Assembly (NCBI RefSeq): GCF_038967635.1
Contig: NZ_CP152413.1
Span: forward strand, 7,072,001 to 7,136,000
Length of the DNA: 64,000 nucleotides
Source of the DNA: Bradyrhizobium sp. B124
GTDB taxonomy: Bacteria > Pseudomonadota > Alphaproteobacteria > Rhizobiales > Xanthobacteraceae
Direction: 5' to 3'
The notes beneath the pieces are model-generated. The model saw only the letters and a program-made list of their open reading frames with translations. It was not told where the DNA came from and did no database searches. A program made the translations under genes and the position numbers. Positions 1-37,135 of the stretch are shown here, piece after piece; within the stretch, counting starts at the first letter, position 1, and each line of letters starts with the position of its first letter.

Positions 1-201
1 CTCGCCCATGTCGAAGCTTCGCGCTACGATTTCCTGGTCACCACCTATCGTGCCACGGCGCGGCGGCTCGAGGACTGCACCAATCGGCCGCGCTCGTCAT
101 GGTCGGACTTCGTCAACGAATGCGAGAACATCCTCGCGACCGAGAACATGTCCTGGATCGCCAAGTTCACCGGCAAGCCCGGGGCGACGTCGAGCCCGTG
201 A
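1..201 (+). CDS. C-terminal fragment of a hypothetical protein (possibly DUF4231/SLATT-like)
   Basis: An open frame enters from the left edge of the window and stops at TGA 199-201, giving the last 66 residues of a protein whose start lies outside. The visible part is charged and probably helical, with the pattern FVNECENILATENMSWIAKF near the end. An acidic helix with Glu, then Glu-Asn and Trp, recalls the C-terminal end of DUF4231/SLATT-type membrane proteins, but this is only a resemblance. The codon usage (G/C in third positions) is that of a real gene, unlike the other frames here. The function is not assigned. The downstream mltB-like gene starts 84 bases later with its own start region. 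Confidence 0.55.
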   Translation, partial: LAHVEASRYDFLVTTYRATARRLEDCTNRPRSSWSDFVNECENILATENMSWIAKFTGKPGATSSP

Positions 202-3778: not shown

Positions 3779-4672
3779 ATGCCCCGCCCGTGGTCGGCCA
3801 TCGGATTGGTCTGGTTCACGCTCGCGACCGCAATGGCGGGCGCGGCCGCGGTGCCTGCCGCGGCGGAGACGTTGGTCAATTTCCCCTCGCTCGATGGGAC
3901 GACTGACCTGATCGGTCATCTCGACCGTCGCGAGGGCGACGCGCCGCGGCCGGCGGTGGTGCTGATGCACGGCTGCTCCGGTCTCAACGACAACAAGGGC
4001 CGTATGTTCGGCCTCTATCGCGCCTGGGCGCGGGCGCTGGCGGTGCAGGGCTATGTCACGCTGATCGTCGACAGCGCGACGCCGCGCGGGTTCGGCCAGA
4101 CCTGCTCGAGCGGCCCCGACAGACTCCGGATGTGGCGCGAGCGGCCGAAGGATGCCTACGGCGCGCTGCAGTATTTGCAGGCGCAGCCGTTCGTGAGGCC
4201 CGATCGGATCGCGCTGATGGGGTGGTCGCAGGGCGGCGGGGTGGCGCTGCTTTCCATCAATGACAAGAGCATCGGGCGGCCGGCCGCGCTGGCGCAGGAT
4301 TTCGCCGTCGCGGTGTCGTTCTATCCCGGCGCCTGCGCCGAGATCTACCAATCGAGGCCCTTTACCAATGTGGAGCCGAACAGCTGGACCACCAGGGTGC
4401 CGCTGCTGGTGCTGATCGGCGAGGCCGACGTCTGGACGCCGTTCAAGCCCTGCGATGCCTTCATCGCGGCGGCCAAGGCGCGCGGCAACCCGGTCCAGCT
4501 GAAGAGCTATCCCGGCGCGGTGCACGCCTTCGACGCGCCCAATCTGCCGCGCACCGAGCTGCCGGCCTATACGATGCGGGACAGCGCCATTCCCGTGATC
4601 GGGACCGATCCCGAAGCGCGCAAGGATGCATTTCCGCGCGTGCTGGACTATCTGAAGCAGCATCTGCAATGA
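3779..4672 (+). CDS. Exported dienelactone-hydrolase-family protein
   Basis: This is an alpha/beta hydrolase of 297 residues with an N-terminal hydrophobic segment ending near AAAVPAAAE, so it is probably exported. The oxyanion region is VVLMHGCSGLND, the nucleophile elbow is GWSQGGG (GxSxG with Ser), the acid is likely in LIGEADVWTP, and the catalytic His is in PGAVHAFDAP. Dienelactone hydrolases proper carry Cys as nucleophile; the Ser here argues for an esterase or depolymerase-like member of the same fold family. No strong ribosome site is visible before the ATG. The LysE gene follows after 51 bp on the same strand and may be co-transcribed. The substrate is unknown. Confidence 0.85.
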   Translation: MPRPWSAIGLVWFTLATAMAGAAAVPAAAETLVNFPSLDGTTDLIGHLDRREGDAPRPAVVLMHGCSGLNDNKGRMFGLYRAWARALAVQGYVTLIVDSATPRGFGQTCSSGPDRLRMWRERPKDAYGALQYLQAQPFVRPDRIALMGWSQGGGVALLSINDKSIGRPAALAQDFAVAVSFYPGACAEIYQSRPFTNVEPNSWTTRVPLLVLIGEADVWTPFKPCDAFIAAAKARGNPVQLKSYPGAVHAFDAPNLPRTELPAYTMRDSAIPVIGTDPEARKDAFPRVLDYLKQHLQ

Positions 4673-5971: not shown

Positions 5972-7186
5972 ATGTTGAGCGTTCCGACGCTTTGGACGGT
6001 ATTCGTTATCAATTTTCTCGCGCTCGGCCTGATCTGGGCCTATGTCGCGCGCAGCTATCCAGCTTTCGGTGCGGCGCGGTTCTGGACCGCGTCCACCTTC
6101 GTCGCGTCCGCCGGCGCCGCCTGCGCGATGCTCCGCGTCATGATGACGGACTCGCTGCTGCCGCTGCTTGCGGCAGGGACGCTGATGGTGTTCGCCGCCG
6201 GCCTTGCCGCGATGGGCATCGAGCGCTTCTACGGCAAGCCGGTCGGCTGGCGCAGCACCGCGCTGTCCACCGCATTCGCCTGCGTCGGCCTCGGCGTCTT
6301 CATCTTTGCCTACGACAGCATGCCGATGCGCATCCTGGTCTACACCATAGCCCAGGTCACGCCGCTTGCGTTGACGCTGAAGCTGCTGCTGTCGCCCGAG
6401 AACGGCCGCGTCAACCCCGGCGCGCGGCTTGCCGGCATCGTCGCCTCCGTGCTGATCGGCATTTATGGGCTGCGCCTCGTCGGCGCCTTGCTGCAGCCCG
6501 GCGAGTTCTCCTTCGTTCGCTTCAACGCGGGCCAATCGCTGGTGATCCTGCTGATGATATTCCTGTCGATGGCGCTCAATTTCGGCTTCCTGCTGATGGC
6601 GATCGACCGGCTGCGCAACGAGGTCGCCGACCTCGCGCTGCTCGACGATCTCACCGGCGTTGGCAACCGCCGCCATCTGTTGCAGCGGCTGACCGAGGAA
6701 TGCGCGCGCTCCGAGCGCAACGGCGAGGCCTTCGCGCTGCTGGTGATCGACCTCGACGGCTTCAAGGGCATCAACGACACCCATGGCCACGCCGCCGGCG
6801 ACGCCTGCCTGCAGCACTTCACGCTGATGGCGCAGACAAGGCTCCGCCCGGGCGATATGCTGGCCCGCACCGGCGGCGACGAGTTCTGCATCGTGCTGCC
6901 GTCCTCGACGCTGCGCGAGGGCGCGATGATTGCCCGCCGCGTGCTGGAAGTCTGCCGCGCCGACGCCGAGCAGTGTACCGGCAACGACATTCCGATCGCG
7001 GTCTCGATCGGCGTCGCGCAATGGACCCGCGAGATCGGCCAGCATCCCGACCGCCTGGTCGCCGCCGCCGACCATGCGCTCTACGACGCCAAGAAGGGCG
7101 GCAAGAACGGCTATGCGACCTATGAGCCGAAGCTGCCGCCCGAGATGGTCGATGTGCTGGAGGCGACCCTGCGCAAGCGCGCCTGA
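5972..7186 (+). CDS. Membrane-bound diguanylate cyclase (GGDEF) with product-inhibition site
   Basis: This 404-residue protein should make cyclic-di-GMP from two GTP. Residues 1 to about 205 form some seven hydrophobic segments with short loops, a membrane sensor of unassigned type; the rest is a GGDEF domain starting LLDDLTGVGNRRHL. The active loop is intact (TGGDEFCIVLPSS). RPGD lies exactly five residues before GGDEF, the RxxD inhibitory I-site, so feedback inhibition by c-di-GMP is expected. NDTHGHAAGDACL, the conserved nucleotide-binding block, is present. No EAL domain follows. AGGGGC precedes the ATG. The amidase gene follows after 36 bp in the same direction and could be in the same transcript, which would link c-di-GMP output with wall remodelling only by inference. 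Confidence 0.93.
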   Translation: MLSVPTLWTVFVINFLALGLIWAYVARSYPAFGAARFWTASTFVASAGAACAMLRVMMTDSLLPLLAAGTLMVFAAGLAAMGIERFYGKPVGWRSTALSTAFACVGLGVFIFAYDSMPMRILVYTIAQVTPLALTLKLLLSPENGRVNPGARLAGIVASVLIGIYGLRLVGALLQPGEFSFVRFNAGQSLVILLMIFLSMALNFGFLLMAIDRLRNEVADLALLDDLTGVGNRRHLLQRLTEECARSERNGEAFALLVIDLDGFKGINDTHGHAAGDACLQHFTLMAQTRLRPGDMLARTGGDEFCIVLPSSTLREGAMIARRVLEVCRADAEQCTGNDIPIAVSIGVAQWTREIGQHPDRLVAAADHALYDAKKGGKNGYATYEPKLPPEMVDVLEATLRKRA

Positions 7187-21156: not shown

Positions 21157-21654
21157 GGTCTGTCCTCGCTCTGCTTAAGCTATTGACCGGTGCGGGCAGG
21201 GCGGAACGTCTTCCATGGCCTGCGGCCGCGTTGATGTTTGTTTTTGCCAAGATATTCGTGAGCCAAATTATCGTGCCTGCGGGCTTGCGCTTTGTTCCAA
21301 GCACTCCTCTCGCGTCTCGAGCGCCTTGCCCGGCGCAGCATGGTGAAGAGCTGCGATGTTAGCAGAGGCAGGCCGTCGGGTGACTTCACAGCCAGGTGTT
21401 TTGCATTTCCGTTTGGCGAAAGCAGGGCCGTGCACGATGCAGACATGACATCCGCAGGTGGCCATCATGCGCACGGCGCGGCCGCATCGCTGGTCCGTGC
21501 GCTGAAGCCCCGCAGGGCGCAGGGGGCGTTCCGGGGCCGCTCCGGTGCCGAAATCGCCGGCACGGCATGGTAAGCATGGATGACAAAATCCCTGCCGCAG
21601 CGCACAAGCCATCTTGCGGCAGGCCGATTTCAAGGCTATTGCCTTCCCCTCAAC
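21157..21654. other. Intergenic region, 498 bp, no gene seen
   Basis: It lies between the start of the molybdenum hydroxylase operon and the tRNA-Glu gene, so it should contain both promoters. Several open frames cross it but none has a ribosome site or recognisable sequence. Confidence 0.5.
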
Positions 21655-21729
21655 GCTCCCTTCGTCTAGCGGTTAGGACGCGGCCCTCTCAAGGCTGAAA
21701 CAGGGGTTCGATTCCCCTAGGGAGCGCCA
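21655..21729 (+). tRNA. tRNA-Glu (anticodon CUC)
   Basis: The acceptor stem GCTCCCT pairs with AGGGAGC, followed by G and an encoded CCA. The anticodon arm GGCCCT-CTC-AAGGCT shows anticodon CTC for Glu codon GAG, and the T arm is CAGGGG-TTCGATT-CCCCTA. The D arm TCTAGCGGTTAGGA is standard. All stems are intact, so the gene is functional by structure. A decayed relative is found at 34073-34146. Confidence 0.95.
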
Positions 21730-21952
21730 AATGTTCGCTTTTCCGCGACATTGTACGACGCGACTCCGTTCGCGAGCGTCCTCCTGCTCGATAGCTGATT
21801 GATCGTGCCGGCCTGTATCAGCTGAGTTTGGCGCTTGTGCTCATTGGCGGTCCCGGCGACGGAGCTTTGAGCATCCGCGTCGCCCGCCTTGGCGGGCAGT
21901 TCGGCCCGTAAATCAAGCGGCGAGCGTCCCTGATTTCCGCTATGATCAAGCC

Positions 21953-32673: not shown

Positions 32674-33936
32674 TCAAGACCACCGTCGAAAGACGACGCT
32701 GGCATTGACGCCGCCAAATCCAAAGCCGTTCGAGATCGCGTGTTCGATGGCCATCGGCCGCGCAACGTTTGCGACGAGGTCGATGCCCAGCGCGGCCGGA
32801 TCGGCGTTCTCCAGGTTGAGCGTCGGCGGCGCGACCTGATCGCGCAGCGCCAAGATCGTGAAGATCGCCTCGACGCCGCCGGCAGCTCCGAGCAGATGTC
32901 CGGTCGCCGACTTGGTCGCACTGACGGCAATCCTTCCCTCGCGCCCGAACACGCGCTTGATGGCTTCGAGTTCGGAGAGATCGCCGACCGGCGTCGAGGT
33001 CGAATGCGCGTTGAGATGCTGGATCTCATCGGGCCGCAACCCGGCCTGCCGCAGTGCCGCCTCCATCGCCCGTCGCGCGCCCTCGCCGTCTTCGGGACCC
33101 GCGGTGATGTGATAGGCGTCCGCCGTCGTGCCGTAGCCGGTGAGCTCGGCGATCGGCCTCGCGCCGCGCCGCAGCGCGTGGTCGAGCTCCTCGATCACGA
33201 GCACGCCCGCGCCTTCGCCCATCACAAAACCGTCGCGGTCGCGGTCGAACGGCCGCGACGCCCGCGCCGGCGTGTCGTTGAACGACGTCGACAGCGCCCG
33301 CGCCGCCGCAAAGCCGCCAAGGCTCACCGGATCGATGCAGGCTTCACTGCCGCCGCAGATCGCAACGTCGGCCTCGCCCGACCTGATCAAGCGCGCGCCA
33401 TCGCCGATCGCCTGGACGCTCGCCGCGCAGGCGGTCACCGGCGCGCCGATCGGACCCTTGAAGCCGTAGCGGATGGTGATGTGCCCGGCCGCGAGATTGG
33501 CCAGGAAGGAGGGAACGGTGAACGGCGACAGCCGGCGCAGCCCGCTTGTCTCCGCGGTGCGCACGGCATCCGCGATCGCGGGAAACCCGCCGATCCCCGA
33601 TGCGATCACGGTCGCGGTGCGCTCCTGCGATCGCGCCTCGGCCGGCATCCAGCCGGCCTGCGCCACCGCTTCCGCCGCGGCCAGCAGCGCGAACAGGATG
33701 AACCGGTCCATCTTCTTCTGGTCCTTGCGCGGCGCCGCGAGATCGGGATCGAACCCGCCCTCGGCATCTGAGGCCTTGTCAGGGACCTGTCCTGCGACGC
33801 GCGCCGGCAGCGCCGCCGCCCACGCCGGCAATGCCGCAAGCCCGGAACGCCCCGCAAGCAGCCTCGACCAGACCAGTTCGGTACCACAGCCCAGCGGGGA
33901 CACCGTCCCCAGGCCTGTCACAACAATTCGACGCAT
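32674..33936 (-). CDS. Beta-ketoacyl-ACP synthase, FabF (KAS II) type
   Basis: 420 residues, normal KAS II length. The catalytic triad is complete: Cys in VTACAASVQAI, His in LNAHSTSTPVGD and His in SATKSATGHLLGAAGG. FDRDRDGFVMGEGAGVLVIE is the conserved FabF segment. It condenses malonyl-ACP with an acyl-ACP. No acyl carrier protein, malonyl transferase or reductase gene is adjacent, so it is not the housekeeping fab operon copy and may serve a special lipid. CAGGAG precedes the ATG. A palindrome GATGA-ATA-TCATC lies ~80 bp upstream and may be a regulator site. Confidence 0.92.
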   Translation of the reverse strand: MRRIVVTGLGTVSPLGCGTELVWSRLLAGRSGLAALPAWAAALPARVAGQVPDKASDAEGGFDPDLAAPRKDQKKMDRFILFALLAAAEAVAQAGWMPAEARSQERTATVIASGIGGFPAIADAVRTAETSGLRRLSPFTVPSFLANLAAGHITIRYGFKGPIGAPVTACAASVQAIGDGARLIRSGEADVAICGGSEACIDPVSLGGFAAARALSTSFNDTPARASRPFDRDRDGFVMGEGAGVLVIEELDHALRRGARPIAELTGYGTTADAYHITAGPEDGEGARRAMEAALRQAGLRPDEIQHLNAHSTSTPVGDLSELEAIKRVFGREGRIAVSATKSATGHLLGAAGGVEAIFTILALRDQVAPPTLNLENADPAALGIDLVANVARPMAIEHAISNGFGFGGVNASVVFRRWS

Positions 33937-34026: not shown

Positions 34027-34072
34027 TATTATCTCGACCGGCCGGACGTCAAGATATTGACTCCGTCTGAAC

Positions 34073-34146
34073 GGTCCCTTTGTCTCGCGGCTAAGGTGCA
34101 GCCCCTCAGGGCGGAAACAGGGGTTTGATTCCGGTAGGGAGAGCCA
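34073..34146 (+). pseudogene. Decayed tRNA-Glu copy
   Basis: The 74-bp stretch aligns along its full length with the functional tRNA-Glu at 21655-21729, with about a dozen substitutions and one deleted base. Acceptor GGTCCCT no longer pairs well with AGGGAGA, the anticodon loop has lost a base (CCCCTCAGGG), and the T stem ACAGGGG / CCGGTAG is broken, while the AGCCA end is kept. It cannot fold as a working tRNA, so it is a tRNA pseudogene. It lies at the left boundary of the accessory patch 34.1-36.7 kb. Confidence 0.75.
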
Positions 34147-34269
34147 AGCCTACGCTTTTCGAACGGGTCTCTGAGAGGGCCGAAGGCTGTCCCTGCGCAG
34201 GTGCATTGCTTCTCGCTTTCCCAAAATGACTAATTCTAAAGGCCCGCAGTCTTCATAAAAACTAGGCGT

Positions 34270-34289
34270 TACGGTGACAGTGCACTCAA
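34270..34289 (+). repeat. Left copy of 20-bp direct repeat flanking the SecB-like/XRE cassette
   Basis: TACGGTGACAGTGCACTCAA; the right copy at 35661-35680 is TACGGTGACAATGCACTCAA (19 of 20 identical, same orientation). I believe the motif is a dispersed intergenic repeat in Bradyrhizobium, so the cassette may have been bracketed by recombination between repeats rather than by site-specific integration. Confidence 0.7.
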
Positions 34290-34454
34290 TTGATGCCTGA
34301 TACCATTGCTTGTAACGCGGTCATCCCGCCTCGCAAGTGTCGTCATTCCTGACTGACCGAACCGCGTCGCTTTGCGCGGCAACGCCACGCGCGGACGATT
34401 CCGAGAATGGAAACTAAGGGCACTCTCACCGTAACGCAGAGGGAGAGGGTTGCG

Positions 34455-34558
34455 GTGGCATTGGGGAAGAAGGGCGGGAAGGCGAGGGCAGAAAGCCTAT
34501 CTGCCAAAAAACAAGAGCAATCGCACAGCTTGCGGCCAAAACGAGATGGCGCCGCTAA
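34455..34558 (+). pseudogene. Frameshifted KGGKARA-type mini-gene
   Basis: GTG at 34455 with an excellent ribosome site (GGGAGAGGG, five-base spacing) opens MALGKKGGKARAESLSAKK. The same frame then degenerates, but after a -1 shift at the A6 run (34505-34510) the reading continues TRAIAQLAAKTRWRR and stops at TAA 34556-34558. The joined product, ~34 residues, has the layout of known alphaproteobacterial mini-proteins of the form GxKGGxARAxxLS...IAxxAAxxRW. Either a single-base indel has inactivated the gene or the A-run (C AAA AAA) allows -1 slippage. The role of the family is unknown; it looks like a tiny basic DNA-associated protein. Its end overlaps the stop of the convergent SecB-like gene by four bases. 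Confidence 0.65.
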
Positions 34559-35076
34559 GCTTCCGAGTCCTTAGAACGCATGTCTTTTGCGGTCACCACG
34601 AACGACATGACGGGCAGAGGCCGAGACCCTAGGTTCGCAGACCAATCAAGCTGAGCGTACAGCGCTCGAAAGTATGCATAGGTGGCTGTTTTACCTACGT
34701 GGTCGATAAACCTTTTTATGATGTCTTCTGAGAAGTCTTTTAGGTCGTAGTAAAAGACCACATAGCTCGCCTTGCACCACGCGACCTTTTTACGCTTGTC
34801 GCGCAGAACTATGTCCCAGCTAATTGTAGCGATGCACTCGCCATCGGCGGGGTCATAGCGCAGTAATTCAGTTTCAACGTTCAACTCGCGCTTTAACGCG
34901 GCCGCCTCAACGCGAAGGGCGGCCGGTAAGACCCGGAAATCAACCTTCTCCAAGACAATTGAAGACAGCTTCGCGAGTCGCGTAGCTTTGTTGTACTGGC
35001 GAATGTTCTCGGTTACGGCCCCATCGAGCACCGGCGTTCCGGGCGCCAGCGCTTCGATTTTCTCAATGTCTGGCAT
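34555..35076 (-). CDS. SecB-like chaperone-fold protein (possible toxin-antitoxin chaperone)
   Basis: 173 residues, no signal or membrane helix. The core pattern matches the SecB fold rather than housekeeping SecB: an N-terminal strand block (VDFRVLPAALRVEAAALKRE), ATISWDIVLRDKRKKVAWCK, SYVVFYYDLKDFSEDIIKRF, and then ATYAYFRALYAQLDW with NLGSRPLPVMSF. In SecB-like proteins of toxin-antitoxin-chaperone (TAC) systems the same region reads WPYFRExxxxLtxxxGLPPLxLP. Such chaperones protect an aggregation-prone antitoxin. It starts 7 bp after the XRE gene (AAGAAG site), so the two are co-translated. GC content is visibly below the surroundings, consistent with transfer. No certain toxin is adjacent. 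The assignment to the SecB fold is my reading of the pattern. Confidence 0.6.
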   Translation of the reverse strand: MPDIEKIEALAPGTPVLDGAVTENIRQYNKATRLAKLSSIVLEKVDFRVLPAALRVEAAALKRELNVETELLRYDPADGECIATISWDIVLRDKRKKVAWCKASYVVFYYDLKDFSEDIIKRFIDHVGKTATYAYFRALYAQLDWSANLGSRPLPVMSFVVTAKDMRSKDSEA

Positions 35077-35083
35077 TGTCTTC

Positions 35084-35524
35084 TTAAGCGGCTTTCAGCT
35101 TCAAAGAGCGCACGCTTCCGTCAACGGACATGTAATTGTCATTGGAGGCGCCAGACCAGTCGTTGCCGCGCTCGCGGGCGCGCGCCAATTGCCGGGCCGG
35201 AAGACGGGCCTCTTTAGACACATGACCGATCTCCCACTGCCCGTCACCTCTTTGTTGCGGGACGGAGGCGGGGTCGCTTCGATGGGAGGCAATTTTCGGC
35301 TCCACTTTTACGCCCAGGGCGTGAAAGAGACGCGCAAACGTCTTGACGCTGGGATTCGCCTCAGCACTCAGGATTTGGGAAAGGCGCGCCTTGCTAATCC
35401 CGGTCCGTTTGGCGAGTTCGGTCTTCGAAACGCCCTTCGCGTTAAGAACGTCCTGCACAAGGAACTGAAAATCGATGAGGAGGTCCTCTTCGGCTTCCAC
35501 AAAATCGATGATGTCCTGGCTCAT
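35084..35524 (-). CDS. XRE-family regulator / HigA-like antitoxin with C-terminal extension
   Basis: 146 residues. A Cro/C1-type helix-turn-helix lies at about residues 26-76: LVQDVLNAKGVSKTELAKRT then GISKARLSQILSAEANPSVK and TFARLFHALGV, a complete five-helix domain. The first ~20 residues are acidic (FVEAEEDLLIDF). The last ~60 residues, after a Gln/Gly-rich linker, are basic and end NYMSVDGSVRSLKLKAA; in TAC antitoxins such a tail is the chaperone-addiction segment bound by the SecB-like partner, which is encoded 7 bp downstream. GAGGAA precedes the ATG by 7 bases. It would repress its own operon and neutralise a toxin if one exists. The name HigA-like is by domain only. Confidence 0.8.
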   Translation of the reverse strand: MSQDIIDFVEAEEDLLIDFQFLVQDVLNAKGVSKTELAKRTGISKARLSQILSAEANPSVKTFARLFHALGVKVEPKIASHRSDPASVPQQRGDGQWEIGHVSKEARLPARQLARARERGNDWSGASNDNYMSVDGSVRSLKLKAA

Positions 35525-35537
35525 GTCGTTCTTCCTC

Positions 35538-35654
35538 TTACTCCCGGTATTCGATCAATTCGGCGATGTCGGCAGCGGCTATCCTAGCACCTGAAGCCAA
35601 TTTCAGTTGAGCAGCGCACGATGAATTGCAGCTCTCACAGTAGAGTTTCCCCAT
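35538..35654 (-). CDS. 38-residue Cys-containing mini-protein at the head of the XRE/SecB-like operon
   Basis: ATG at 35654 opens MGKLYCESCNSSCAAQLKLA and continues SGARIAAADIAELIEYRE to TAA at 35538, 13 bp before the XRE start. CxxCxxxC near the N-terminus suggests a small metal-binding knuckle; the rest is an amphipathic helix. Its position is where TAC and HigBA operons carry the toxin, but it has none of the RelE/HigB or MqsR features and is far shorter. No strong ribosome site is seen (the repeat copy 35661-35680 occupies that place), so coding is supported only by operon position and non-random composition. It could be a mini-toxin, a truncated toxin or a leader peptide. Confidence 0.45.
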   Translation of the reverse strand: MGKLYCESCNSSCAAQLKLASGARIAAADIAELIEYRE

Positions 35655-35660
35655 CGGAAC

Positions 35661-35680
35661 TACGGTGACAATGCACTCAA
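35661..35680 (+). repeat. Right copy of 20-bp direct repeat flanking the SecB-like/XRE cassette
   Basis: TACGGTGACAATGCACTCAA, one mismatch to the copy at 34270-34289 and in the same orientation, 1391 bp apart. It begins 7 bp before the start of the 38-residue gene on the opposite strand, so it also forms that operon's upstream region. Confidence 0.7.
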
Positions 35681-35796
35681 ATATCTGTCGTCGCTGTGAT
35701 CCATCTCAATCACAACTTCGCAACACATGCGGGGGTGAGCACACTCGGATTTACCTCTCACTTGCGCAAATTATGTTGGTGCACCGAACCGCAACA

Positions 35797-36063
35797 TCAC
35801 GTCATCCCCTCCAGCACCTTCCGCACTTCCCCCAGCAACGCCCGTATCTCCCTCCGCTCTTCGATCGCATCCCTCGTGAACAGCCCGTGCTTGCGCGCGT
35901 TCCGGTTTGCCCTTGGCGCGCCGGATCCCTCGGCGCCACCATGCATGCGACAGCGCGTCTTGCCGTGCACCGCCGGCGCGCGGCACGAACCGCCCGAGCG
36001 GATTTTGGCGCCGCAACGCGGGCTCGCCAGCATCGGACCGGTGGTTCTGGTGTGATCGTTCAT
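35797..36063 (-). CDS. Small HGG...GAPxxNxNARKHG protein
   Basis: 88 residues. The N-terminal half has CGAKIRSGGSCRAPAVHGKT then RCRMHGGAEGSGAPRANRNA and RKHGLFT, with four Cys/His residues (CG, SC, RC, HG) that could bind zinc. The pattern C...C..P...G..RCxxHGG.sxGaPxGnxNaxKHG is a well-known small alphaproteobacterial and phage-associated family, without an assigned function; some copies sit next to terminase-like or transposon genes. A helix with RREIRALLGEVRKVL closes it. It overlaps the upstream gene by four bases (ATGA), showing translational coupling. The pair forms a unit on the minus strand. Confidence 0.7.
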   Translation of the reverse strand: MNDHTRTTGPMLASPRCGAKIRSGGSCRAPAVHGKTRCRMHGGAEGSGAPRANRNARKHGLFTRDAIEERREIRALLGEVRKVLEGMT

Positions 36064-36719
36064 GCCTGTGCGTCTTGCCTGGCATCGGCGGCATCATGCC
36101 GTCTCCTGGCGCCCGCGGGCCTCAATGCCCGCGCCGCGGCTGCCGGGGTCTGGTCGGAGACGATCACGCTCGCATGCTGGGTGACGTTGCCGACGATGGC
36201 GTTGCCGCCGTCCTCCACCTTCACGTTCTGCACGGTGATGGCGGGCTCGCGCTGGCTGCGATAGCGGGTCAGCGCGTCGATCTGGGCGGGAAAGGTGCGG
36301 GTGAGCCGGCCGAGCGCCCGCGCGGCGCTGTCGTGCTGGGCGAGGTCGTCGGCATGCGCGAGGTGATGGGCGCAGCGCATCGCCATCACATGCACCGACA
36401 CCATCTGCGCCACCAGCATGGCCTCGACGGAATCCCGCGGGCCAATGCTCTTCACCATCGAGATCATGAAGGCGAGGTTGACCTCGCAGGGCTTGCCGCC
36501 GCTCACGCTGGCCTTGACCAATTGCCGCAGGATGCCGTCCATCGCGTCGCGATCGGCGGCGCCCAGCGCGTTCGCCATCAGCGCTTCGCCGAGCTTCCGG
36601 TCGGGATGGTCGATCGCGAATCCGCGCCGCGAGAGTTTTATGCGCGGCGTCGCGGTGGCGTGGCTCGGGGCGGTTGTGGCGGCCGTGGTCGGCGCGGTGG
36701 TTTCAAGCGCAGGTGTCAT
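36060..36719 (-). CDS. Hypothetical protein coupled to the HGG protein
   Basis: 219 residues, helical, without signal or membrane segment. The first ~25 residues are Thr/Ala-rich; then RKLGEALMANALGAADRDAM, EVNLAFMISMVKSIGPRDSV and MVSVHVMAMRCAHHLAHADD form a helical core, followed by RTFPAQIDALTRYRSQREPA and ITVQNVKVEDGGNAIVGNV. The last phrase (xVxxVxVxdGGqAIVGNV) is shared with a family of prophage-like hypothetical proteins in Bradyrhizobium and Methylobacterium, found as partner of the HGG protein. A CCGGAG site precedes the ATG. Function unknown; perhaps a remnant of a mobile element. Confidence 0.65.
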   Translation of the reverse strand: MTPALETTAPTTAATTAPSHATATPRIKLSRRGFAIDHPDRKLGEALMANALGAADRDAMDGILRQLVKASVSGGKPCEVNLAFMISMVKSIGPRDSVEAMLVAQMVSVHVMAMRCAHHLAHADDLAQHDSAARALGRLTRTFPAQIDALTRYRSQREPAITVQNVKVEDGGNAIVGNVTQHASVIVSDQTPAAAARALRPAGARRRHDAADARQDAQA

Positions 36720-37135
36720 GTCGACGGTCTCCGGAACACGCGCGGCACGCGCAGGCGATCGCTCGCTGCGGGAGCCGGTGCGATGTCAATTGTGGGGAGG
36801 GGGTCGGTCGCAAGTGCATCCGTCGCGCCCGCTGTTGCGGGCGAAGGGGCGCTTGCACGATTTCGGAATATTGGAAATGTACCCCTGAGTTGCCCGACGT
36901 GTCAAGTTGCCTCGTCGAGCGTCGGCAGCCACCGCCTACTGTGCATGGGGTTGTTTTCGATATTTTGGCTGCGCGCCCCTGCGGCGGGTGCTCCGCCACC
37001 GTCGCCGCAGTTATGCCGGCAAGGCACGGGGCGATATCCGGTCAGCGGGTACCGCGCGCCGATTGGATCACTATACTGGCCGACGCGTTGCGACCGGCGT
37101 GGCCTGACCGCCGGCCCGCGGATGAAGGAAACTCG
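36720..37135. other. Intergenic region, 416 bp, no gene seen
   Basis: It separates the phage-like pair (minus) from the molybdoenzyme gene (plus). The long open frame of the molybdoenzyme extends through it without recognisable sequence; no hairpin or operator was found. Confidence 0.5.

Follow-up and report, generated by a model that had tools for sequence, protein, structure and literature searches.

Results

Organization of the locus

The window, a stretch of 64,000 nucleotides from Bradyrhizobium sp. B124 (contig NZ_CP152413.1, positions 7,072,001 to 7,136,000), contained three frames on the minus strand: a 38-residue frame, an XRE gene and a gene for a 173-aa SecB-like protein, with spacers of 13 bp and 7 bp, respectively (Table 1). 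The initial annotation had described three co-directional, tightly spaced genes of lower GC than the surroundings between two direct repeats, and the coordinates, spacers, repeats and GC difference were all confirmed. The GC content was 0.552 at 34269-35680 compared with 0.642 in the whole window, and 8 of 1252 sub-windows of equal length (step 50; partly 34269-35680 itself) were as low or lower. GC3 was 0.63 in the chaperone gene and 0.68 in the XRE gene, against 0.81-0.86 in three neighbouring genes, in line with a foreign origin. The 20-bp repeat TACGGTGACARTGCACTCAA was located at 34270-34289 and 35661-35680 in the same direction. With up to 3 mismatches these were the sole copies in the window and none was obtained in 100 shuffles; with up to 1 mismatch they were the sole copies in the whole 9.17-Mb genome. 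A shorter, looser pattern additionally matched at 8899375, with 1 mismatch, and at the opposite end of the left element; a control pattern also gave 2. The tRNA-Glu-like stretch was not called as a tRNA itself; the window segment that it matches includes a tRNA-Glu at 21655-21729.

Table 1. Features at the insertion site, with the evidence for each
Feature	Position in window	Strand	Evidence
SecB-like TAC chaperone, 173 aa, intact frame	34555..35076	-	predicted fold
XRE/HigA-type antitoxin, 146 aa, HTH at residues 26-74	35084..35524	-	HTH_3 E 2.9e-11; tail conservation
38-residue frame, starts MGKLYCESCNSSC, CxxCxxxC confirmed	35538..35654	-	PSSM rank 1 of 1352 tails; no full-profile match
Putative toxin-gene remnant proper, 15 codons + stop, limit approximate	35538..35585	-	rank 1 at 14, 16 and 18 residues, lost at 22
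Right REP-like half-site, common to right flank of relatives	35655..35680	+	89.7% alignment of 35655-36800 with G250
Left REP-like element, 166 bp, inverted ends	34269..34434	.	G239 has a diverged pair of copies at this site
tRNA-Glu-like stretch adjoining the insertion site	34055..34160	+	78% match to window 21637-21743

The 173-residue protein is predicted to be a SecB-like chaperone

No Pfam, PADLOC or NCBIfam family matched the 173-aa protein at E up to 1. A total of 84 homologues besides the protein itself were found, none of which had a precomputed Pfam domain. The protein failed the Pfam cut-off of PF02556, the SecB family, which matched 1 of the 85 family members, at E 0.087. The genome encodes a separate canonical SecB (contig positions 5605569-5605985), the sole PF02556 match there at E up to 1. 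Searched by sequence against PDB chains, the profile of the family gave one chance match alone (E 0.27), and the APOBEC1 Pfam matches among the homologues (18 of 85, best E 0.0033) were set aside as weak noise. The AF2 model based on 85 sequences (pLDDT 85.4, pTM 0.76) displayed four strands and a long helix, and its closest solved structure was Rv1957, the M. tuberculosis TAC (toxin-antitoxin-chaperone) chaperone, followed by export SecB. The predicted fold thus agreed with the SecB-like identity proposed from the sequence.

The XRE regulator carries a conserved addiction-like tail

The XRE gene was adjacent to the chaperone gene in all 13 distinct loci, with a gap of 159 bp in L005. It encodes the HTH domain of a DNA-binding antitoxin (Table 1), and its matches to addiction-module antitoxin models stayed under their cut-offs. 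The tail contains a Trp, GASNDNYM and a C-terminal Ala-Ala. In the alignment of the window protein with 54 of the 110 matches, the tail Trp and the C-terminal Ala were nearly invariant and Asp-Asn was invariant. After 14 of the 110 matches shorter than 136 aa were dropped, the C-terminal end of the remaining 96 homologues was AA in 86 and VA in 6, a Trp beyond residue 80 was found in 94 and an [AS][SC][NS]DN motif near the end in 79. For HigA1, ClpX recognition through Val-Ala (PMC8165232) and binding of the tail Trp and Tyr by the chaperone (PMC6377645) have been reported, and CmdA, which ends in LAA, is degraded by ClpP (PMC11618068). The family alignment and the C-terminal end supported the earlier suggestion of an antitoxin with a chaperone-addiction-like tail, as judged from sequence.

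Shortened or altered tails were also observed in four XRE proteins (P0097, P0098, P0099 and P0104; contigs of 21 kb to 1.03 Mb) of the near clade, the closest relatives with chaperones 67-90% identical; these were possibly decaying copies or assembly errors.

Fuller relatives carry a HigB-type toxin and an operator-like motif

In 9 of the 13 loci of the chaperone family, a toxin gene was present, and the operon of these fuller relatives began with the gene for a HigB-type toxin (RelE fold, about 145 residues), followed by those for the XRE antitoxin and then the chaperone. Locus L038 of the soil relative Bradyrhizobium sp. SSUT77 carries a HigB-type gene of this kind. The RelE-type fold of the upstream toxin was obtained by structure prediction. 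Six toxin residues were invariant (K93, R98, Y100, D118, K121 and K122 in P0214 numbering), and the protein is probably an mRNase. PADLOC did not recognise the toxin P0214, and its family had no Pfam or NCBIfam match. Apart from the C-terminal remnant described below, a toxin gene was found neither in the window nor elsewhere in the genome.

An AT-rich, operator-like motif resembling TTAACATATATGTTAA was located shortly upstream of the toxin frame in 7 of the 9 fuller loci, with 12-16 of 16 positions matching and no more than 2 of 300 mononucleotide shuffles doing as well in those loci. Throughout the locus counts, the duplicates L003 (= L038) and L043 (= L037), identical in scores, had been dropped. 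The two other fuller loci reached 10-11, within chance, and the window 9-10. Since the motif was derived from the tested loci, this result is descriptive.

By indirect matching with a query of at most 100 words, and leaving out P0001 (own) and P0027, toxin hits were obtained on none of the 11 near-clade contigs that were 2.5 kb or longer, compared with 1 of 7 contigs of the middle group and 9 of 30 of the distant group. It may therefore be that the entire near clade lacks the HigB-type toxin or carries another.

A three-gene TAC-like operon was additionally detected on a Sphingobium baderi conjugative plasmid (L094, NZ_CP128179.1, 2047-3471), consisting of a 136-aa protein, an HTH regulator and a distant SecB-like protein (31% identity).

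The end of the 38-residue frame resembles the end of the toxin

A score matrix was built from 41 toxin C-termini and scanned over the tails of all 1352 open frames in the window, allowing the end to be offset by up to 2. The tail of the 38-residue frame ranked first at 14, 16 and 18 residues and sixth at 22, so that only its last 14-18 codons look toxin-derived. At 14 residues it scored 12.8 and the next tail 6.1; the corresponding scores were 13.0 and 9.4 at 16 residues and 10.3 and 8.3 at 18, a lead that shrinks with length. The last 14-18 residues thus look like the 3' remnant of a HigB-type toxin gene, an identity resting on those residues and their position. None of the six invariant toxin residues lies within them, and the earlier codons of the frame were matched by nothing found. 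The full toxin profile detected no toxin in the whole window; a fragment of this length would be expected to escape it, but the result counts against the remnant.

Alternatively, the near clade might have another, diverged toxin at this position, which the window would then have lost. In favour of this, the upstream frames of the plasmid operon and of L006, of 136-137 residues, were unrecognised by the toxin profiles; the remnant, however, fits the HigB-type C-terminus best among all tails in the window, and we regard this explanation as improbable.

The right-flank homology in relatives started at 35655 (G250), 35656 (G117), 35657 (G001) and 35661 (G175) and ran outward, so the ATG of the 38-residue frame (35652-35654) sits at the junction of insert and flank. 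The stretch 35560-35800 was matched in 8 of 257 genomes and, outside the own genome, nowhere left of 35643 among the matches listed. From this arrangement the usual promoter region appears to be gone from the window locus. By eye, no ribosome-binding site preceded the ATG of the 38-residue frame, whereas GAGGAAG precedes the XRE gene and AAGAAG the chaperone gene. In 9 of the 13 loci a larger gene occupies the place of the 38-residue frame, and no such frame stood before the pair in any of the 12 other loci looked at. The open frame with its CxxCxxxC pattern therefore exists as first described, but it is probably not a functional gene.

The proposal of a new minimal TAC, with the 38-residue CxxCxxxC peptide acting as its toxin, has in its favour an open frame with an ATG directly upstream of the XRE gene. 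It is unsupported, given that the frame ends like the usual toxin, that the rest is unmatched and that none of the 12 other loci has such a frame before the pair; with the junction ATG and the lack of a Shine-Dalgarno sequence by eye, the mini-toxin was rejected as very improbable.

The direct repeats are REP-like sequences at a variable site

At one mismatch or fewer, the repeat was present in 168 of 265 same-genus genomes, a few of which had 16-21 copies. Among 30 fetched loci (L007-L036), 13 contained an inverted pair within about 165 bp and 4 a near full-length Y1_Tnp (RAYT-type) gene, which lay between inverted copies in 3 and had a copy on one side in 1; these calls used a query from one of the loci, and Pfam confirmed two. 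One RAYT query, run with no positive control, gave no match in the own genome. Given the inverted pairs and Y1_Tnp genes of relatives, the repeat is a REP-like sequence of a RAYT family. TAC-specific mobile-element ends and attC-like cassette sites were rejected, RAYT/REP being the simpler reading since some copies flank Y1_Tnp genes. The direct repeats are therefore RAYT-associated REP-like sequences at a variable site.

The site is bounded by a gene at 32674-33936, which we take to be KAS-type, and a gene at 35797. Between the same flanks, the insert was about 6.3 kb in G239, 3.3 kb in G036, 5.1 kb in G250 and 3.4 kb in G175. Of 17 stretches scanned with 2 mismatches allowed, 11 contained a repeat copy and 6, including G036, did not. 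A right-border copy placed as in the window was observed in G250, G175 and G117, and G175 had same-direction copies near both insert ends. In the close relative G239, the insert (L068) encoded a PD-Lambda-3_A-like protein (3885-4364, E 1.5e-15) and a PtuB-like HNH protein (6107-6850, E 8.1e-16), and one protein of the G036 insert, with a PLD domain, gave a DrmC-like match (E 2e-7). PADLOC matched none of the 7 proteins of the G250 and G175 inserts, one of which (G250) has a CarD domain. A defence hotspot was thus only partly supported. Rfam gave only matches below gathering scores at 30-40 kb.

The chaperone family was rare: with the own genome counted each time, it occurred in 4 of 265 same-genus genomes, in 3 of 391 sampled from the taxonomic family and in 4 of 397 sampled from the order, and elsewhere in no phage record, 1 plasmid record, 1 viral contig and 5 loci in genome contigs. 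Of 257 genomes sampled within the genus, 1 had the HigB-type toxin.

Discussion

The locus belongs to a so far unannotated HigB-type TAC family. We consider it quite probably the antitoxin-chaperone part of such an operon, amputated of its toxin at the 5' side by a rearrangement. The initial annotation had proposed an antitoxin-chaperone unit without a recognisable toxin; among its options, a TAC that lost its toxin was best supported, by the remnant and the fuller relatives, and a new minimal TAC with a Cys toxin did not hold. In fuller copies the XRE tail would be held by the SecB-like chaperone, and the Ala-Ala degron would otherwise be exposed. A rearrangement at the variable site would have deleted the promoter/operator region together with the toxin gene up to its last 14-18 codons, leaving the antitoxin and chaperone frames intact. 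The parts of this scheme that were computed are the fold predictions for the chaperone and for the relatives' toxin, the gene order, the lack of a toxin gene and of the operator motif, the C-terminal remnant and the conservation of the degron-like end. By analogy with described systems, the chaperone would bind the XRE tail, ClpXP would degrade the antitoxin, and the mechanism of the fuller members would follow the TAC model.

The intact state of the two frames is also compatible with selection for the pair after toxin loss, either as an anti-addiction module against incoming TAC toxins or as a regulator-chaperone pair. The invariant chaperone residues and tail motifs are present, near-clade contigs gave no toxin hit, a distantly related TAC-like operon is carried by a conjugative plasmid, and toxin-less "AC" loci are known (PMC4257090). 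However, the usual promoter/operator region is lost, the tails of four near-clade XRE proteins are shortened or altered, and L005, also without a HigB-type toxin, carries a stop in the chaperone; selective retention is thus unlikely. Little credence is likewise given to the broader idea that an alphaproteobacterial clade keeps the toxin-free pair, descended from a TAC family that present SecB and toxin models do not see, as a permanent antidote to TACs arriving on plasmids, with the cassette exchanged at the REP-bordered variable site. Following amputation of the toxin, the pair in the window would have become a relic and would serve, if anything, as an antidote reserve; a relic is likeliest, and a retained antidote is possible.

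TAC and "AC" loci (PMC5105189, PMC4257090) and the role of TACs in phage defence (PMC11618068, PMC11980606) were already known. The consulted portion of the open-licence PMC literature contained no description of the TAC family of this chaperone, including for Bradyrhizobium. The M. tuberculosis TAC (HigB1-HigA1-SecB^TA, Rv1955-1957) is similar in the gene order of the fuller relatives, the SecB fold nearest Rv1957, the HigB-fold toxin of relatives and an antitoxin tail with a Trp and a hydrophobic, degron-like C-terminal end. Differently, the window is without a toxin, and both toxin and chaperone escape Pfam and NCBIfam. CmdTAC and E. coli HigBAC (PMC11618068, PMC11980606) likewise pair a SecB-like chaperone with an antitoxin, and CmdA has a comparable end; CmdT, however, is described as an ADP-ribosyltransferase (PMC11618068). 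The "AC" loci share an antitoxin and a SecB-like chaperone with no toxin, but the survey, as reported in PMC4257090, used PF02556, and here the toxin remnant suggests an origin. Compared to RAYT genes with REP sequences (PMC3733652), the repeat of relatives similarly ends units with a Y1_Tnp gene and occurs in inverted pairs; it was not matched to a named REP family, and the own-genome RAYT query was negative.

The TAC family appears sparse and mostly alphaproteobacterial. Its toxin and chaperone are both missed by standard annotation, so TAC censuses based on PF02556 would undercount. A TAC amputated of its toxin also makes it testable whether an antitoxin-chaperone pair persists as an antidote or decays.
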